Below, piece after piece: positions 24,001 to 54,129 of a stretch of 64,000 nt of DNA. The number at the start of each line of letters is the position of its first letter. The stretch's first letter is position 1. The notes beneath the pieces are model-generated. The model had not been told where the DNA came from and ran no database searches. It saw only the letters and a list, made by a program, of their open reading frames with translations. The DNA is from Heligmosomoides polygyrus polygyrus (Eukaryota; Nematoda; Chromadorea; Rhabditida; Heligmosomidae). The stretch lies in the NCBI GenBank assembly GCA_947396885.1, contig OX377201.1, forward strand, positions 29,117,923-29,181,922. Reading direction: 5' to 3'. A program made the translations under genes and the position numbers.

Positions 24001-27000
24001 GCGATTACGAATTCGACATCCGTTTTTGAAAATTCTACCGATTTTTGGCATGTTGCAGCCGTTTGAGGTTTTTAGGATCAGGATCACTGACCACCCTCAG
24101 TTATCGGTATGGGGGATCTCCTGCCATAATCGGCCAAATGCACTTCGGCATCGTATCCGACACCCTGAATAACCCCTGCCTTTATAGGAAGTTTGAGCTA
24201 AATCGGTGTTCCTGTCCCGACCACCCTCAGTTATCCAGAAGGAAATCCAAAACCTATCGAAATCGGCGGAATTTTCGAAAACTCGTAATCAGCGCACCAG
24301 ATAGCCCCCAGATGATTTTGGATGAGGGCATTTGGCCAATTTCGAAAATGTCGATTTTCGATGACGTCATCGTCCAGGCAGACTCGACAAGGTGCGCCCT
24401 CGTCCTCGAGGGAAATTGTCAAAAATCAATTTTCCCGGAATTGGCCGAGATTGATACCGTTCGGTAGAGCTTTTCGAACTGAACAGAACGATTCTTTTGT
24501 CAAAAACTCAAATGTGGGCGGGTAAGGGGGGAAGAAACTTCACCGCTGCCCCCGCAGCTCTAAAATGGCAGCTGGGACTAAAGCAGTTTACGCAGCTGGA
24601 AAGTTATGGGCACTTCATCGTAAAGTACCTTAGCTGTTTTGCTAGTTTACGCATTCGTAGGCCGCTAGATGATCGCGTGTTCGTACAGTGGTCGACTGAA
24701 ATCGGAAAAAATAGTGTCACACAATAGTGCCAGCATATTCGCACCGCTGTAACTTTGTCCATTCATAGGCTGCATTACTGCGTTTCAGCGCACCTATAGA
24801 GCTTTCTAAGAGCGCGGGTAGCGCAGTCGGAGGAGGCGCCGGCTGTTCCGTGCACCCGATACCAGGTTTCTGGCTCGGATTTCCCGCCCGGGTTGAAGTG
24901 AACTCACGCGTGAGTGCAGCTTGGTCCAAGTGGCGTTCGCTGACTGGTGTGCTCTGCGATAGGAAGATACCAGAGCACCTGAAGTCGAAGATCTACAGAG
25001 CAGTCGTGCGGCCAGTAGGCTGTACGGCGCTGAGTGTTGGCCTGCGACTAAGGAAGTTGAAACGCGCCTCAGCGTCATGGAGACGAAGATGCTGCGCTGG
25101 ACGGCTGGAGTCACCCGCATGGACCGCATCAGAAATGATGCTATCGGCAGAAGTTCGGTGTCGTGCCGATAGCGGATAGGATGCGCGAAGCTCGCTTACG
25201 ATGGTACGGCCACGTTCTGCGTGGAAAGGAAGACAGCGTCCGCAAGATAGGCCTTGAGTTGGAAGTGTCAGGAAAGCGGCCTAGAGGACGCCCGAAGCAG
25301 CGTTGGTCGGATACGTTACACATAGCATGAAAGTAACTGGCGTCCACACCAGAAGAGCGGACCCTGCGACGAAGCGGGACAAACGCTGAAGAAGAAGAAG
25401 AAGAAGAAGAAGGGAGCATGCAACGGCTTTCGACCCCTTGCGGCCGACAACTCGTCCGCGGCCGGCCTTCTCAATGGAGCGCAAGTTTTCAATTTTGGCG
25501 ATTTTTGATCTTTCATATGAAATGTATATACCGAACGATAGAGCTCGATCTCCTGAGCTCAAATATGCTCCTGTTTTTTCAAACGGATGATTTTGGGCGA
25601 GTTATAGCAAAAAGACACAAAAACCGCAAAAGTGCGGTTTTTTCGGCGTCTATTCAAAAGACGCGTCCGGTACTGTACGCGTGTATAGAGAATGGATTGT
25701 ACCTAGAACCAACTGAAAACAAAATGAAAATTTCAAATAGTTTCTGAAGGCTACATCTTTGTCAGTCTCGTGTAAGCTTAAACGTATAAGCCCATTTGCT
25801 TACCCGAAGACAAGCAACGAGAAATGCTCGGTTTCCATCCAGGTTCACAGTGAAGGCAACGTTTTTGAAATAGTCGAGATCCCTTTCAGACGGATACGCT
25901 GAATACAAAAGCATCGAAGCAGCCGACCAAGCGAGTGACATCGGAATGACGAATACGAGAAAGAGTCGTCCTCCGTACGTGAGCACCCAGTTTCTCCTAA
26001 ATCGACGAGAAACTACGATTCCTAGTCACCTGAATCGCTATTTTATGCAAATCTCAGTGCGCCGTTCGACTGATTTCCCTTAATTGTCAAACCTGCAGAC
26101 TTGTAAATATCGGAAAATGAAGAGCGATGGCGACACTATGATGGATGTGCAAAGCAGGACGATCCAAACAATCAGAAACGTGCGTCCGACGTACAACGAC
26201 ACGAGAAAACCTCCTTTTACGAACAGCACTGACGAGGTTTTGCTGTCAGCAGCGACGGTCTAAATATTTAGCTGGCAGCAGCACTGGCTAAACACTAGTC
26301 GTACTTCAGATCACAATTACTAAACATCGAAGTAAAATTTCATCTTGCGAACAGCTAAACGGTTCATTCGTAACCATTATAATAAAAAATTGATTTTCCT
26401 ATACATAGCAAAACTGTGGCATAAATTATTCAAAAAAGTATGGAATGTGTTATAAATTTTGAGCAGAACACATTCCTCTCTGTGTTTGTCTCAAAGGATT
26501 TTGGGCAGCATTTTAAACAATTCAATATAATGGAGATTCTGTTGATATCATTTACCTCGATTTGTCCAAAGCTTTCGACAAGGTGTGTCATAAGAAACTT
26601 CTAGCCAAATTTTATCAAGAGGGCATTAGGGGATCTCTTCTAGCATGGATTCGCTCTTACTTGAGTGGGAGACATATGCGTGTTAAGGTGGGAAACTCCT
26701 TTTCTAGTTGCTATGATTGTACAAGTGGAGTGCCTCAGGGAGGTGTATTATCTCCGATTTTGTTCCTTGTATATACTTGCGATCTTCCTTCCTGTTTAAT
26801 TACAGATCCTTGTGTGAAGGTGCAAGTGTATGCTGATGATATAAAGATTTACGGCGCTTACAATGATGGCAATAAGGCTCAGGTCTATCAAGCTTTATCT
26901 CAGTCCATCAACAATATGATGGTGTGGGCCAACGCTTGGGAGCTACCTGTGAATCTTTCGAAAACATCAGTTTTTCATGTTGGAAATTCGGACAGCAACG

Positions 27001-28341
27001 AGTACTGTTTCAACAACTGTGTTCTAACCTCCATATCAGAGGTACGGGATCTTGGAGTGTTTCTAGATTGTGGGTTAACATTTGAAAAACACATTGATAC
27101 TATTGTGCAAAAAGCTTTTGCCACACTTTTCCTGATTTGCAGAAATATTAAGTGTGATGACCACTCTATACTGATCACTCTATATAAATCGTTTGTCATT
27201 CCTATTCTAGAGTACTGTTCTAATGTTTGGAGTCCTTTTACCAAAAAGTCTCAAACCAAAATTGAAAAAGTGCAAAAGACCTTCACAAAAATTCTATTTT
27301 ATAGATGCGTACGTACTCCAAACGATACACGAATGATTCCCAACTACTGAGGAAAGGCTTAGACTTTTCAACCTCAAAAGCCTGTTTTATAGGCGTGTTT
27401 TCAGCGACCTAGTTTTCTGCTTTAAAGTACTAAAAGGCGAATCAAGACTTAAAGCTAGCAAATATTGGACGTTCTTGCCAACGCTGGGTCACCGTAATCA
27501 CTACCGTTTTCACTACCCTAGGGTGAAAAAGAGATGTCGTGATAAAGTGTTCAATTCGCTTTTTTACCGTGGCGCTCGCTGGCTGCAAATGTTGCCTGCA
27601 AGCTTATTAGAATCGCCAAATGCCAAAATTTTTCGTAGTAGGTTGAGGAAAATAAACCTACTCTCGACGCTGCATTTAAAGGACATTTCCTGAATATATG
27701 CATCATTGCTTTCCTTTTTTTGGCAGATTTTACTTCCGTTTTACTTTTATTTACTTTAAAAAAAACTTACTTTGGTTTTTTTGTGCTGTTAAGTGTTTTT
27801 TGTTCACTTGTTGTTTGATTTATACTTTACTTTAAGTTACTAATCTGGTTTCTGTATTGATGCCTAATTAGTTCCCCAATGTTATCTGATTTCTGGCATT
27901 GTTGTTCACTCAATTTCCTCAACACTTTTCTTTGCTGTCCTTGGTTTTTTGTCAATTGTAATGCCTTTGTAAACTCATTTGCCACTTTTCCACTGCGTCC
28001 CCTAGCAGCCGTCATGTGGGCTTCAATGGGAGCGGCGGACCTACTAAGATGGTATCCGGAGCCGTTCTCCCTTGCGACTTGCAGTGTTGGGGGGCCACTG
28101 CTCGTGTCCCATTGAACTGCCCACTCCATAAACCTTTGTTTCTGCGTTTTCCTCTTCCTTTATTTCTAAGTCGACCCCTGTTGATCAATTTTTTCTTGTG
28201 AGCTATCATCACTAAACGCTAGGTTGAGTTAATGAGGAGTTTAGTTGTTTGTTTTTGTTCTCATTTTCTAAAGATCGTTGCCTTGTTTTCACCGTGTCCA
28301 TGTTTGTTAACTGTTGATCATGGCGCACTATATAGTGCAAA

Positions 28342-44218: not shown

Positions 44219-45377
44219 TACAATACCGCTCGCGCCGCACGGTCAAAAGTGGGCGAAAAAGCGCCAACATAGCGTCGCAAAGCGTCGCACGCTCATAACT
44301 CCTCAATTTTACGTTTTTTGAATAAAGGTTGGTACCATTCGATTCGCCTATTCGAGATCTACACAAACGTATGTGAGACTTTACCGGAACACCCGTATTT
44401 TCGCCGTGGGCGGTCCAAAATTGGCTGGACGGGCGATTAGAGCAGCTTATTTCCCAGGATATGCGTGCTTTCAGAGTATCTCAAAGATGGCGTACGTCGA
44501 CAGTGCTCTGTCATGCCAGGGATTCCCTGAGAGTGCTTTGTGCACAATGCACACAGAACCTAACCTATCAATCGAGTGGGCGAGCGCATGTCCCCTGCGC
44601 TTCTATCTTCTCTTACTGGGAACTGCGACGTTTTCAAGATTATTTCGAGCCGTTTGGAGAATGTTATCAGGAATCACCCACCACCCCACTCAGGATTAAC
44701 TCCAATCTGTCCCAGCGAAACTTTGGTGTGCGCCGTGAACAATGCATAGAGAATCGAACCTTTCAATCGAGGGGGGGGGGGGGCGACCGCTCGCAAATTG
44801 CACGCGCCGGCGTCTTCGGAGCACAATAGCTCTGTCAAGTTGGAACCTTTCAGGTTGCAGCTTGTAGGTCTTGTAGGCAGTCGAACGTTCTGCTAGCACA
44901 CCAAAGCAGAATGGTTTAGCATAGGAGGGGCAATGTTATAGGGGTGCGAAGCTGCAGGTGAGGCTTGTGTGAAGCATTTTTTTCCGATTTCCGTGGACCA
45001 CTGCGAGAAGACGCCACAAGCTAACAGCCTCAAAATGCGTATGCGGACAGACCACTTAAGGTACTTTACGGCGACGGGCTCAGAACTTCTCAGCTGCCTA
45101 AATTGCTTTAGCCCCATCTCCCGTTTTAGGGCAGCGGACTTAGCGGTTGAAGTTGCCTGCCCTCTTACTCGCCCATATTTGGGTTTTCGACACTCCCAAT
45201 AACACCTTTCTGTTCTGCTTGAAGAGCGCTATCGAATTGTATCAATTTTGACCGATTTTTGGAAACATCGATTTTTCGGCAATATCCTATCGAGGACGTG
45301 GGCGCCCTAGGCCGAGCTGCGCGGATGATGACGTCATCGAAAACCGATATTTTCGAAATTGGCTATTCCAAACCAGA

Positions 45378-46457
45378 ACAAAAACACAACAACTATATTA
45401 ATGTTGGAACCACATATATAAATAGTGTTCTAGACAAAGTTAACTTGAACAAAATGTTTAATAAAAGCTATATACGTAGAGTGATAGAAAATAATTTTAA
45501 TAAAAAAGTTTTACCTTTTAGATGTGCATTTAAATCACAACCTTCTTTTTCCAAAAAAAAATGTTTAATTATAATACATTAATTAGAAATACAAGATTGT
45601 CAGAATTAAATTCAATCTTTAATAGTAAATGCTTATGTATCAAAGAAAAGTATAAAAAATTTGTTGACAAAACACATGAACACATTATCACAGGTAATTT
45701 AGAAATAATTTCAGATAAAGTTATTAAAAATTTAATTATGAAAGGCACGAAATTTGTCCCAAAACATAGTGTCTCAAAAGAAAACATACAATTCTGGTTT
45801 GAAGATGTTTTTTCTTTATTTTTAGACAAAATTAAAAATAAATATAAGTTAAAAGATTTTCACCTCAATTTAATAAAACAAAAACTCAATATTCTAATGA
45901 AAAAGATATGGAAATCTTTGCTATATCATATTACTGTGAAAAACAATAGATCTTTTAAAAAATTAAATACACATAATGTAGAATACCTAAATTTTTTAAA
46001 AGAAAATTTTGTTATATGCCCTATTGACAAAGCAAATAATAATTATAGTTTTATTTGTAATAAATTCTATTTAATCACTTTGGCGGAAGAAATGGGAATT
46101 GTTTCAGAAAATAGTAAGTTAAAAATTTCTAACTTTAATCAAACATATGAAATATATAACAAAGAAAACGAACTTGAAATTATCAACAGGCATAAAACCT
46201 TATGCTTAAATAATAAAATTAAGGTTGATGGAACAGAAAGAGTTCCATTGATATATTGTTTACCAAAACTACATAAAAATCCAGTCAAATTCAGATTTAT
46301 TACTGGAGCGTATAACAGCTCCTTAAAACCTCTTTCAAAAGAAATAACTATAGTTTTTACGTTCTTAAAACAGCATTTTGTTAAATATGTTAATATAATT
46401 ACATCAAGAAATAAAAATTTTATTGGTTATTGGTCTATTAATAACAAATATATCTGA
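45378..46457 (+). pseudogene. Penelope-like RT, N-terminal part (frameshifted)
   Basis: A short upstream frame (to 45582, ..FSKKK) meets the main frame 45561-46457 at a run of nine A (45553-45561), a probable slip. The 298-residue stretch is lysine- and asparagine-rich. Landmarks: ICPIDKANNNYSFICNKFY at about residues 152-170, and PLIYCLPKLHKNPVKFRFI at about 229-247, matching the PKLHK-type RT finger region, then SLKPLSKEI. The frame ends at a stop at 46457, and the next part continues in another frame, overlapping from 46423. Confidence 0.7.
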
Positions 46458-47415
46458 AAAAATCAGTAAAATTAATATCGAAAACTGTAGACTTTTTTCA
46501 GCAGATTTTACTAATATGTTTACTAGTCTTCCACATAATATTATATTAAAAAACATAAAAGAATTAATAAAAATATGTTTTCAAAATGCAGGTAAAAAAT
46601 ATATTGCATATAATGGACACAACAACATTTATTACACTAATAATAATACACTGAATAAATATAGATATTATACAGCCGAAGATTTAATGTTTTTTACTGA
46701 ATACTTACTCAAAAATAGTTTTACAATTTTTGCGGGCACAATTTATAAACAAATTGAAGGAGTACCTCAAGGAAGTAATTGCAGTCCATTACTTGCTGAT
46801 CTTACATTATCAATGTTTGAATATAAATTTTGTAAAAGGTTAGTAACACAAAATCGTTACATAAACATACATCCATTTAGATACGTGGATGATATTCTTA
46901 TAATTCACAATAAAAACAATCAATATATACAAGAACTACTTTGTGAAACATACGAAAATTTCCTTCAGTTTGAGACAACACATGAGTCAGATTACGACTG
47001 CAATTATCTCGATCTAAATATTAAAATTGTTAACAATAAAATAGTTACAAGATTATACAATAAAACAGACAATTTTAAATTTCATGTAATCAGATTTCCA
47101 CATTTCTATTCAAATATATCAATAAAAGTTAAAAAATCAATCATATTTACAGAAACATTGAGATTAATTAGATGTTGCACTGCTTTCAAGGATTTTGTTG
47201 AAAACCTTATTAAGTTGATAACTAGACTTATCAAAAGTGATTATCCAGTTGATATAATTATAAGAAATATAGTAAAATGTTTGAATAGAAATAAATATTT
47301 ATTACAAAATTATGATCAGGATAATATACTACATTTCATTCCTAATTTACTTAATTATAATATAAGATTTAAATACAAAAATAATAGTAATAACATTTTA
47401 TCTATAAATCAATAA
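46423..47415 (+). pseudogene. Penelope-like RT, catalytic part
   Basis: 330 residues. FSADFTNMFTSLP (about 25-37) carries the first catalytic aspartate, GVPQGSNCSPLLADL (113-127) follows, and FRYVDDILII (152-161) carries the other two. YLDLNIKIVNNKI and LYNKTDNFKFHVI make up the thumb region. All three catalytic positions are present. It ends NNILSINQ with no GIY-YIG domain. It needs a frame change from the preceding part, so the copy is probably inactive, unless the shifts are programmed or sequencing errors in A runs. Confidence 0.72.
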
Positions 47416-48029
47416 TGATATGTTTGTTAGAAATAACTTCAAAATGAGAGCAAAAACTACATTCTGGATGATAATGATAGGGGTGTGGATATAGTTGATA
47501 AACTTTAGCATAAACTTAGTAGGTTTCATTTTATCGGAACTTTCATTTCATCGACACCGTTTAGAGTGAGTGGTAAGTTGTAATTTAAAATTCACAGAAT
47601 TGCACATAAGATATTTTTATAAATAATATTTAAAATAAATAATTAATTAATAATAGAAAAGTTTTAAAAACAATTTCCAAAAAATAATATAAATAATTTT
47701 TAAAATTTTTCTATAAATATTTTTTTGAAAATAATAGCAATTTAAAAATATATATAAATTTAATTTAAATTTAAAAAAATATATATATATATATAAAATT
47801 TTAAAAATATATAAATAAATATGTAAATATGGTTATATATAGAGAAATAAAAGAAACGTTCATAAACATCTGTTTCATGTCAAGTGTAACGTATTTTACA
47901 GTTTTAAGACCTGTGTTTTAAGAAATGTGTTGTAATATTAAGCTAGGCATTATTAAGTTACCTGTTTTATTTTGTTCTGTTAATTTCGTGTTATAACATA
48001 GGTTGTTAATTTTGTCTTGATTTGTAAAA

Positions 48030-48200
48030 TTTAGTTGTTAGTACATAAGTTTAAACACATAAATAATATGCCACCTAATATTGTACTAACAACTAAATTA
48101 ATTAGTTACCTTCTTCACTGATGAGCCTCGGGGTAACTAATTATAAACATGTTTTGTATGAAGGTAGAGGCGAAACAAAACATGTTTAAATTGTTGTTAG
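48030..48200 (+). ncRNA. structured RNA with hammerhead ribozyme core
   Basis: 3' of the RT. The core CTGATGA (48118-48124) is flanked by CTTCA and GCCTC. The complements TGAAG (48159-48163) and GAGGC (48167-48171) follow downstream, then GAA plus A (48172-48175). A 12-bp helix AAACATGTTTTG / CAAAACATGTTT (48145-48156 / 48176-48187) forms stem III next to the cleavage triplet GTA (48156-48158). Two outer hairpins (TTAGTTACC / GGTAACTAA at 48102 / 48132, and TAGTTGTTAGTACA / TGTACTAACAACTA upstream) add structure. All conserved core bases fit, but the strand order is unusual. Confidence 0.65.
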
Positions 48201-48349
48201 ACGTCGATGTTTCGGGTGGTGTTGTTGTCCTTTGTCCAAAATTGTTGTGTCTTTGTATTCTATGTTATTGAAAAGTTATGAAAATAATTATTTTAATTAA
48301 AAAATAACAATAATATATTATTTATTTTAAGTAATTTAAAGCATAGATT

Positions 48350-49942
48350 CAAATCAGATTCGTTAAGCCTCAAGTGGCTGGTATCGAGGTTGTGAGCTGT
48401 CATAACGATGTTTTGTTGCGATCAAAACTTCTAGCGCCAGGCGGGACTCGAACCCGCACCTCCCTCTAACCGGGCGGGAATGCTCTACGCCATTACACCA
48501 CCGGCGCCGTTTGATCGAACGCAACATCCACACCTCGTGGGACCGATCAGCAGTCACCCGTATCCGGGATGACCTGGCCGCTGATATCAGCATGGAACCA
48601 GTCAAGCTGATGGTCTTGATAGAAACGATTCAAATCAGATTCGTTAAGCCTCAAGTGGCTGGTATCGAGGTTGTGAGCTGTCATAACGATGTTTTGTTGC
48701 GATCAAAACTTCTAGCGCCAGGCGGGACTCGAACCCGCACCTCCCTCTAACCGGGCGGGAATGCTCTACGCCATTACACCACCGGCGCCGTTTGATCGAA
48801 CGCAACATCCACACCTCGTGGGACCGATCAGCAGTCACCCGTATCCGGGATGACCTGGCCGCTGATATCAGCATGGAACCAGTCAAGCTGATGGTCTTGA
48901 TAGAAACGATTCAAATCAGATTCGTTAAGCCTCAAGTGGCTGGTATCGAGGTTGTGAGCTGTCATAACGATGTTTTGTTGCGATCAAAACTTCTAGCGCC
49001 AGGCGGGACTCGAACCCGCACCTCCCTCTAACCGGGCGGGAATGCTCTACGCCATTACACCACCGGCGCCGTTTGATCGAACGCAACATCCACACCTCGT
49101 GGGACCGATCAGCAGTCACCCGTATCCGGGATGACCTGGCCGCTGATATCAGCATGGAACCAGTCAAGCTGATGGTCTTGATAGAAACGATTCAAATCAG
49201 ATTCGTTAAGCCTCAAGTGGCTGGTATCGAGGTTGTGAGCTGTCATAACGATGTTTTGTTGCGATCAAAACTTCTAGCGCCAGGCGGGACTCGAACCCGC
49301 ACCTCCCTCTAACCGGGCGGGAATGCTCTACGCCATTACACCACCGGCGCCGTTTGATCGAACGCAACATCCACACCTCGTGGGACCGATCAGCAGTCAC
49401 CCGTATCCGGGATGACCTGGCCGCTGATATCAGCATGGAACCAGTCAAGCTGATGGTCTTGATAGAAACGATTCAAATCAGATTCGTTAAGCCTCAAGTG
49501 GCTGGTATCGAGGTTGTGAGCTGTCATAACGATGTTTTGTTGCGATCAAAACTTCTAGCGCCAGGCGGGACTCGAACCCGCACCTCCCTCTAACCGGGCG
49601 GGAATGCTCTACGCCATTACACCACCGGCGCCGTTTGATCGAACGCAACATCCACACCTCGTGGGACCGATCAGCAGTCACCCGTATCCGGGATGACCTG
49701 GCCGCTGATATCAGCATGGAACCAGTCAAGCTGATGGTCTTGATAGAAACGATTCAAATCAGATTCGTTAAGCCTCAAGTGGCTGGTATCGAGGTTGTGA
49801 GCTGTCATAACGATGTTTTGTTGCGATCAAAACTTCTAGCGCCAGGCGGGACTCGAACCCGCACCTCCCTCTAACCGGGCGGGAATGCTCTACGCCATTA
49901 CACCACCGGCGCCGTTTGATCGAACGCGCCGTTTGATCGAAA
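48350..49942 (-). repeat. 281-bp tandem array of tRNA-like units
   Basis: Five full units and a partial one, nearly identical, period 281 bp. Each has, on the minus strand, GGCGCCGGTGGTGTAATGGC (A box) and GCGGGTTCGAGTCCCGC (B box in a perfect T arm), and the acceptor stem pairs GCGCCGG with CTGGCGC. The anticodon arm cannot form a normal seven-base loop, so these are tRNA-derived repeats rather than ordinary tRNA genes. The whole array is bracketed by TTAAAGCATAGATT (48336-48349 and 49943-49956). The identical 79-80-residue frames on both strands are by-products. Confidence 0.85.
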
Positions 49943-51339
49943 TTAAAGCATAGATTTACACCAAATTCTATTATATATCGTTCTACTGCCTACAACACAC
50001 AAGTTGCAGCCGAAATGATTCGAACTCGACAGAGTTATTGTGCTCCGAACACGCCCACGCGTGCAATTTAGCGCAACAACGGCAGACGCTCTCCGCGCTG
50101 TTTCTCACCCAGATTACAGTTTTTCCCACTCTAAATGACACCATTCAATTCAGCATGAAAAGCTCTTTCGCATGGTATCAAGCATAGCCCAACTCGAAGA
50201 CATCGATTTTTCGATGACGTCATCGTCCTTCCGCCCGGCCTCGTCCTCGATGCTAAACAGTCAAAAAATTGATGATTCCAAAATCGGTCGAAATTGACAC
50301 CGTTCGATAGCGCTTTTCATGCTGAATGGAGCGGTGCCATTCCGAGTGTCGACGACTCAAATCTGGGCGAGTAGGAGCGCAAGAAACCCTAACCGCTAGG
50401 TTTCGCCGCTCTAAAACGGCAGCTGAGGCTATGCAGTTTGGGCAGCTGAAGAGCTACGAGCACGTCGTCGTAAAGTACCTTAAGCGCTCTGTTCGCGTAC
50501 GCATTTTAAGGCCGTTAGCTTGTGGCGTCTTCTCGCAGTGGTCCACGGAAATCGGAAAAAAATGCTTCACACAAGCCTCACCTGCATCTTCGCACCCCTA
50601 TAACATTGCCCCTCCTATGCTAAACCATTCTGCTTTGGTGTGCTAGCAGAACGTTCGACTGCCTACAAGACCTACAAGCTGCAACCTGAAAGGTTCCAAC
50701 TTGACAGAGCTATTGTGCTCCGAAGACGCCGGCGCGTGCAATTTGCGAGCGGTCGCCCCCCCCCCCCTCGATTGAAAGGTTCGATTCTCTATGCATTGTT
50801 CACGGTGCACACCAAAGTTTCGCTGGGACAGATTGGAGTTAATCCTGAGTGGGGTGTTGGGTGATTCCTGATAACATTCTCCAAACGGCTCGAAATAATC
50901 TTGAAAACGTCGCAGTTCCCAGTAAGAGAAGATAGAAGCGCAGGGGACATGCGCTCGCCCACTCGATTGATAGGTTAGGTTCTGTGTGCATTGTGCACGG
51001 CGCACTCTCGGGGCATTCCTGGCATGACAGAGCACTGGCGACGTACGCCATCTTCGAGATACTCCGAAAGCACGCATATCCTGGGAAATAAGCTGCTCTA
51101 ATCGCCCGTCCAGCCAATTTTAGACCACCCACGGCGAAAATACGGGTGTTCCGGTAAAGTTGTATACAAGTTTGTGTAGATCTCGAAGAGGCGAATCGAA
51201 TGGTACCAACCTTTATTCAAAAAACGTAAAACTGAAGGAGTTATGAGCGTGCGACGCTTTGCGACGCTATGTTGGCGTTTTTTCGCCCACTTTTGACCGT
51301 GCGGCGCGAGCGGTATTGTACGTTCAAGGACCCTACTTC

Positions 51340-53065: not shown

Positions 53066-54129
53066 TTATTCGAAATAAAAACCTTCTGATTCTACACATA
53101 TTTGCCAACGTGACACATGCTTTTTTAACCCAGTAGCATAAAAATCAGAAGTTCTGGAATTGACGAAATCTTCAAAGGCACTTTCGGCATCCTGTTGGTA
53201 TTTGAATATTTTCCCTACCAAGAAGTCACCAAGATGCTTGAAGAAATGGTAGCCTGTTGGGGAGAGGTCGGGAGAAAACGGAGGATGTGGTAGAGTTTCA
53301 ATGCTCGGCTCATTCAATTTCTGCAACGCCATTCGTGCTACATGGGGGCGAACATTGTCGTGCAGAAGGAGAACTCGCCTTCGGTTTACCAAGCCCGGCC
53401 GGATGTCCTTCAACTTTTTCATCATTTCTTCAATTTCAATGCAGTACTTCTCTGCCGTGATGGATTCACCGGGAGGGAGGAAGCTGTGGTGAATAACTTC
53501 CAGCGAACACCACCATGCTGTCACCATTACTTTCCTTTGTTGCAATTCCGGCTTCGCAAAAACCTTGCGGCTCTCATCGCTGTCCACCCACTGTACCGAT
53601 CGTCGCTTGTTGTCCATTTCTACAACAAGCGACGATCGGTACAGTGGGTGGACAGCGATCCATTTCTTGTCACAGGTTACGATGCGATCAAGGAATGGGT
53701 CCGCTTCGTTCCGTAGAAGCAGTGCGGACGAGATCTCATATCGTCGGTTTCTTTGCTCCTCAGACAGCTCGCACCCATCTTTCCAGCTTTTTGGTCTTTC
53801 CAATTTCCTTCAGATGCCGGGCAGCTGCGTTGTGACTGACGCCAAGAACCTTTGATATCTCCCTGGTACCTTTGTGTGGATCCTCCTCTACCACATCTCT
53901 CAACCACATCTCTGTCCTCATCAGCATCACTATGCCTCCCACGACCTTCATGTTCTTCCAAGCTCTCATCTCCATTCCGGAACTTCTGATACCAACGATA
54001 CGCCATCCGAATTGTGGAACATCCTTGACCGAATGCGGCGTTGATCTTCTCGTCCGCCTCCTTAGCTGTAGTGCCCAGCTTGAATTCATACAAGTAAATG
54101 CCTCGGATTACCCTTTTGTCCATCTGCAA
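53066..54129 (-). pseudogene. mariner transposase (DD34D), frameshifted
   Basis: N-terminal part 54129-53900 has a helix-turn-helix region (RGIYLYEFKLGTTAKEADEK and RMAYRWYQKFRNGDESLEEH). A shift leads to the second helix-turn-helix (ISKVLGVSHNAAARHLKEIG), and another shift to the catalytic half (53803-53066). The catalytic residues are all present: IVTCDKKWI, LLLHDNVRPHVA and PPFSPDLSPTGYHFFKHL. A perfect 38-bp inverted duplication sits just after the first aspartate and adds foreign residues (VHPLYRSSLVVEMD) in frame. Two frameshifts plus this insertion make it inactive. Confidence 0.9.
53576..53659. repeat. perfect 38-bp inverted duplication with 8-bp loop
   Basis: 53576-53613 is the exact complement of 53622-53659, separated by CCATTTCT. 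It lies within the mariner transposase, directly after the codons for the first catalytic aspartate block, and keeps the frame open. One arm encodes the normal NKRRSVQWVDSD; the other is its inverted copy. Confidence 0.95.

Follow-up and report, generated by a model that had tools for sequence, protein, structure and literature searches.

Among the Penelope-like retrotransposons (PLEs), Naiad and Chlamys are reportedly permuted-domain elements, described by Craig et al. in 2021, in which the GIY-YIG endonuclease precedes the reverse transcriptase (RT). Hammerhead ribozymes can be divided into three blocks, C, G and S, and all six of their orders have been named (Eckert et al., 2023; PMC10085705). 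The same study reports 583 predicted type-SGC ribozymes and one doubtful type-GCS. Type CSG was represented by two similar sequences, known from metagenomes only and both active, with kobs of 0.004 and 0.026 per min; both RNAs were cleaved during transcription, at the place homologous to the H17 cut (PMC10085705). No later report on type CSG was found by title in the literature searched, from which most subscription journals and bioRxiv fall outside.

The ribozyme motif and its strand order

The window, by which we mean the whole 64-kb stretch of Heligmosomoides polygyrus DNA that was analysed, holds a complete hammerhead core at positions 48102-48187. Direct reading gives the block order CUGAUGA, cleavage site, GAAA, with the following parts:

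48102..48110, plus strand: 5' arm of the bridging helix (hairpin A), TTAGTTACC; read directly, with two-sided changes in most helix pairs of related copies
48113..48117, plus strand: stem I strand adjoining the CUGAUGA core (block C), CTTCA; read directly
48118..48124, plus strand: catalytic core CUGAUGA (block C), CTGATGA; read directly, mostly intact in near copies
48125..48129, plus strand: 5' strand of stem II (block C), GCCTC; read directly
48132..48140, plus strand: 3' arm of the bridging helix (hairpin A), GGTAACTAA; read directly, with pair changes in relatives
48145..48157, plus strand: stem III strand, ending in U16.1 at 48157 (block S); read directly, with pair changes in relatives
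48158, plus strand: H17, an A, with predicted cleavage on its 3' side; hammerhead consensus position
48159..48163, plus strand: stem I strand after the cleavage site (block S), TGAAG; read directly
48164..48166, plus strand: three-base link between stems I and II; three bases in nearly all aligned rows
48167..48171, plus strand: 3' strand of stem II (block G), GAGGC; read directly
48172..48187, plus strand: GAA (48172-48174), A15.1 (48175) and the second stem III strand (block G); read directly

Overall, block C spans 48113-48129, block S 48145-48163 and block G 48167-48187. A15.1 (48175) pairs with U16.1 (48157); stem III is formed by 48145-48156 with 48176-48187, and an additional pair, 48144-48188, is possible. 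This C-S-G order cannot be obtained by circular permutation of types I-III. When the sequence was re-read, every position given in the preliminary description proved accurate: all conserved core positions are present, the non-circular strand order is C-S-G, and the cleavage predicted after 48158 agrees with the hammerhead consensus position. The link to PLEs that it had drawn is likewise borne out.

Immediately upstream of the ribozyme lies a perfect 18-bp inverted repeat (48028-48045 / 48082-48099). CTAACAAC (48086-48093), overlapped by the 3' arm of this repeat, might pair instead with GTTGTTAG (48193-48200); such a pairing would close the whole ribozyme and represents a possible alternative fold.

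A scanner covering all six block orders, in which the score is the summed stem length with stem III counted to 10 at most, assigns the window motif a score of 21, the sole match of any order at 14 or above in the 64 kb. Dinucleotide shuffling of the window (150 shuffles, both strands, 19.2 Mb in all) yielded ten matches of 14 or more, three of them CSG, and none above 17. All scanner matches in the window and 29 loci are CSG, as are those in a second set of 20 loci, except for one weak CGS match (score 15) that overlaps the CSG site of locus L087.

In neither the window nor ten related loci did any Rfam hammerhead family reach its gathering score. The type I family RF00163 had no match among 73 scored of 115,222 whole-genome candidates, a negative that carries no weight, since the 14 control genomes gave no match either. 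A RAGATH-1 match at 48092-48163, with 20.5 bits against a gathering score of 56.3 and with block C used in a different fold, was rejected. Motif-pattern searches returned 0, 0 and 17 records from viral_contigs and 0 and 2 from genome_contigs; by the scanner, these 19 loci contain no hammerhead of any order. Two strong hairpins also form on the complementary strand of the window (z -6.2 vs -5.0); with plus and minus strands folding equally strongly, folding energy cannot tell which of them carries the motif. At locus L053, z was -1.7 and 12 of 200 shuffles folded equally well or better. Energy by itself is therefore a weak witness for the motif.

The carrier element and its copies

The motif follows the ORF of a PLE in which the GIY-YIG endonuclease comes before the RT. 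Three features of this element were placed in the window:

45364..48349, plus strand: PLE copy carrying the motif; borders from 38 related loci
45561..46457, plus strand: upstream ORF piece of the broken PLE ORF; without Pfam match
46423..47415, plus strand: reverse transcriptase part of the PLE; PF00078, 6e-9

The window copy retains the RT part only; it is 5' truncated and, where it meets a tRNA-bearing repeat, lacks the final ~14 nt of the usual 3' end. Across related loci, the 3' end of the carrier repeat is constant while its 5' ends vary. At L017, an unbroken ORF of 1,004 aa has a GIY-YIG match in its N-terminal piece, before the RT part (PF01541, 1.4e-7), while a single Pfam scan of the whole 1,004-aa ORF gave no match. 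The same layout is found in another family, at L067 (PF01541, 5.1e-8; PF00078, 9.4e-10), and the two families are 43% identical over 697 aa. Judged by these predicted domains, GIY-YIG before RT is the permuted-domain PLE layout. The position of GIY-YIG on the N-terminal side of RT, the tandem and partial-tandem copies and the 5' truncation are all features of endonuclease-N-terminal PLEs. Ten relatives of the RT are present in the protein collection, none informatively named, and the main text of the published H. polygyrus assembly paper contains neither 'Penelope' nor 'ribozyme' (PMC10682056).

The repeat at whose edge the window PLE copy ends is a tandem repeat of ~281 bp in six copies (48335-50039), every one of which holds a minus-strand tRNA-like gene (Rfam tRNA, 38.4 bits; tRNA-Thr, anticodon ggt, according to ARAGORN with the bacterial code). 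Similar-looking pieces occur in the 5' flanks of L029 and L041. Remnants of other mobile elements in the window include a transposase piece (PF01359, 2.4e-21; 53066-53803, minus strand) and a further RT piece (PF00078, 4.9e-18; 26562-27350, plus strand).

The motif is part of a dispersed repeat, with at least 40 scored matches (1083 first-look candidates); this and every other copy count is a lower bound. The RT protein has at least 121 scored matches in the genome (3,234 first-look candidates), 100 to 45% identical. From the 121 matches listed, 40 RT loci outside the window family, 45-86% identical to the window RT, were hand-picked to span the identities, and the DNA downstream of each was taken. 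Of these 40 loci, 35 have a CSG ribozyme or the recognisable remains of one; because the loci were hand-picked and several are near-identical or neighbouring, this proportion does not come from randomly sampled, independent events. Model R1, whose only pairs are those of the bridging helix and stem III and which was partly built from the same sequences, matched the sense strand at 18 of 20 loci and then at 16 of 20 in the second set. One locus, L088, was missed at first, and its extension by 1 kb (L108) reveals a CSG ribozyme with an exact core.

With L108 included, the scanner finds an exact core at 25 of the 40 loci (24 before the extension). The ten remaining positives are decayed or altered; they include L064, L096 and L099, where CCGATGA replaces CTGATGA (U4-to-C) in all three copies seen (L064:248-336, L099:246-334, L096:247-335) and the stems are still paired. 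In this L064 sub-family, the change may weaken cleavage. Five loci have no motif (L054, L059, L091, L092 and L100). At L059, similarity to its relative L053 ends before the place of the ribozyme, and L054 and L092 are alike over 452 nt only. L091 and L100, from one family and 91% alike over 1.1 kb past the RT, contain no hammerhead of any order, with either an exact or a relaxed core, and extension of L100 by 1.1 kb gave the same result. The motif thus recurs in several sub-families of one element lineage. The L055 ribozyme has at least 40 scored matches (1,394 first-look candidates), of which 28 are identical over all 101 bases, which suggests recent activity.

Some of the elements are arranged in tandem. 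L067 is a head-to-tail array with a unit of 4,329 bp, 99.9% alike, and one ribozyme at the same place in each unit; the cleavage sites are 4,329 nt apart, and a DNA search located a third ribozyme 4,327 bp further. At L010, a truncated copy of 673 bp lies upstream of a long one, with the ribozymes 5,602 nt apart. L010 and L023, which are on two chromosomes, share an identical head-to-tail junction.

Between copies, the helices change in sequence while remaining paired, so that the compensatory changes in stems I-III that the preliminary description had proposed looking for are indeed found in related element copies of the same genome. Stem I occurs as CTTCA/TGAAG, CCTTA/TAAGG, CCCTTA/TAAGGG and AGTCA/TGATT; stem II as GCCTC/GAGGC, GCCACC/GGTGGC, GCCAC/GTGGC, GTTCC/GGAAC and GCAC/GTGC; and stem III as several sequences of 6 to 15 pairs, including A15.1-U16.1 (scanner count). 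This listing is descriptive only, since the scanner demands a minimum of pairing. In 43 distinct rows, mostly of the window family, 94.1% of cells are paired, compared with 40-49% when the strands are slid, all five covariation measures exceed those of all 500 shuffles, and the bridging helix has two-sided changes in 10 of its 12 pairs.

In 27 distinct rows across families, 89.5% of cells are paired (40-51% slid), and there are 185 two-sided cells against a shuffled mean of 57. Counts for the bridging helix and stem III lean towards R1, which contains both. Stems I and II are absent from this model and so provide the fairer test: taken alone in the 27 rows, they are 94.4% paired (27-52% slid), with 40 two-sided cells against 9.7 in shuffles. 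Related rows in these pair counts are not independent events, and families with a six-pair stem II are one column out of register at stem II pairs 4-5, so those pairs are undercounted. In the 27-row set, further pair types were not above shuffles (234/500; stems I and II, 497/500), nor was the number of pairs with two-sided changes in stems I and II (206/500).

Conservation is concentrated on the ribozyme. Across 15 copies of an older sub-family, identity to the window is 95.9% within the block 48097-48188, which is sharply bounded, and 80.9% over the remainder of 47930-48349; in 22 nearer copies, the values are 99.3% for the block and 97.1% for the surroundings. Selection has probably acted on the ribozyme while neighbouring sequence drifted. 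CTGANGA, the GAAA block and the cleavage-site block are all intact in 30 of 39 near copies, in a test that includes the first stem II G; the core or the first stem II pair is changed in the other 9 of 39. With this proportion intact, older copies decay like dead insertions.

Proposed fold and role

The core, its order, the helices, their covariation and conservation, the spread over sub-families and the tandem spacing are direct observations. On these comparisons, we consider it highly probable that the motif is a type-CSG hammerhead, placed downstream of the PLE ORF, which would fold as an intramolecular double pseudoknot and cut read-through transcripts to unit length. Two hairpins would form during transcription, hairpin A first and hairpin B next. 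The loop of hairpin A would present the CUGAUGA strand; hairpin B would have hammerhead stem III as its stem, and its loop would present the cleavage site and the partner strand of stem II. The two loops would then pair as stems I and II, producing a double pseudoknot within one RNA, and the stem of hairpin A would tie the outer ends of stems I and II, replacing the usual loop-loop contact. Stems I and II run alongside each other in a folded hammerhead, so the link 48164-48166 and the bridging helix would both join ends that are already near. Catalysis, which we infer together with the chemistry of the ends, would cut the RNA after A48158 and leave a 2',3'-cyclic phosphate and a 5'-OH.

A transcript that runs through a tandem array, or across two copies, would contain two ribozymes, each able to fold alone. 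Because some elements are head-to-tail or stand behind a truncated ribozyme-bearing copy, two cuts would release unit-length element RNA, and such processing could in turn be used in transposition. The released RNA may act as the template, become circular or simply be trimmed.

In an Anolis PLE of another clade, reverse transcription begins within a stem-loop and hammerhead mutants have no effect on insertion in vitro, the hammerhead being dispensable there (PMC11167929). These results, together with the location of the motif in the 3' part of a retroelement whose 3' end is constant among copies, would fit a conserved folded RNA that acts as a binding or priming structure for the element protein, with little or no cleavage. 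We nevertheless regard this as improbable: a binding hairpin would need no CUGANGA, GAAA, A15.1-U16.1 pair or non-G H17, all of them kept while the stems change.

A smaller probability still, indeed a very slight one, is attached to action as a dimer or in trans, between two RNAs or neighbouring copies, as proposed for minimal PLE hammerheads; one review describes PLE type I hammerheads as possibly cleaving as dimers (PMC7761336). Pairing between loops could link two molecules, the window family has a partly palindromic stem III, and the elements occur in tandem. Against this, each copy is complete in its blocks and bridging helix, with 6-15 pairs in stem III by the scanner's count, so that one strand suffices; moreover, type-CSG RNAs were cleaved during transcription (PMC10085705). 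The preliminary description had deduced a kissing-loop or dimeric hammerhead. Its two hairpins with mutually pairing loops hold, while the dimer is not needed, given that the four helices can form in one strand and that the type-CSG RNAs of Eckert et al. were cleaved as they were transcribed. That reading was also incomplete, in that it overlooked the named type CSG, the identity of the first hairpin as a bridging helix and the recurrence over sub-families.

A chance hammerhead likeness in a repeat with two palindromes can be set aside with near certainty: the element does have other inverted repeats (48028-48045 / 48082-48099), but none of 150 shuffles reached the motif score, elements with proteins 43% identical over 697 aa share the order and differ in their stem sequences, and the covariation makes this reading untenable.

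Type CSG in a permuted-domain PLE

The type-CSG order has already been described; its PLE setting is new. As a PLE ribozyme it is a new variant, since the PLE hammerheads treated in two reviews are minimal type I (PMC7761336, PMC6155905), and it widens the picture of PLEs given there. Until now, type CSG consisted of two metagenome sequences without host or role. It can now be assigned to a host genome and a mobile element, in many copies and several sub-families that show compensatory changes, with tandem arrays occurring naturally, so its activity and purpose can be tested directly. Cutting element RNA is a likely job for this rare form, whose presence here also suggests that an animal mobile element can pass on a non-circular RNA rearrangement stably.

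A broader proposal, to which we give even chances, is that type CSG is the standing, self-sufficient, single-copy ribozyme of the whole permuted-domain PLE clade, kept to ~45% protein identity, and that CSG-1 and CSG-2 are stray pieces of such elements. If this were true, the tying together of stems I and II would let element RNA be cut even from solitary copies, in contrast with other PLEs, for which dependence on dimers has been proposed. The elements described here resemble Naiad and Chlamys in having GIY-YIG before RT and tandem copies.

By every feature that can be tested in sequence, the window motif is type CSG: it has the C-S-G order on one strand, conserved CUGANGA, GAA-A15.1, U16.1 and H17, stems I-III with compensatory change, and a helix that brings stems I and II together. 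Compared by published description, it shares with CSG-1 and CSG-2 the order, the conserved core, the three stems and the helix joining stems I and II, and the published 3' cleavage products of 29 nt have the length of 48159-48187 (PMC10085705). CSG-1 and CSG-2 differ in being metagenomic, with no element or host given, whereas the window motif is PLE-linked and present in many copies and several sub-families, one of which carries U4-to-C.

Type SGC (HRIMA-1) likewise combines a non-circular order with a double pseudoknot and a helix bridging stems I and II, but its order is S-G-C and it is almost exclusively metatranscriptomic, near hairpin ribozymes (PMC10085705). In these published permuted forms, the counterpart of hairpin A of the window is the helix bridging stems I and II (PMC10085705). 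The minimal type I hammerheads are also found in PLEs, in tandem or repeated-end settings; in the reviews cited here, they are C-G-S, without helix III or the tertiary contact, and may act as dimers (PMC7761336, PMC6155905). The window motif departs from this form, in which stem III is absent or very short, by its C-S-G order, its long stem III of 6-15 pairs and its bridging helix.
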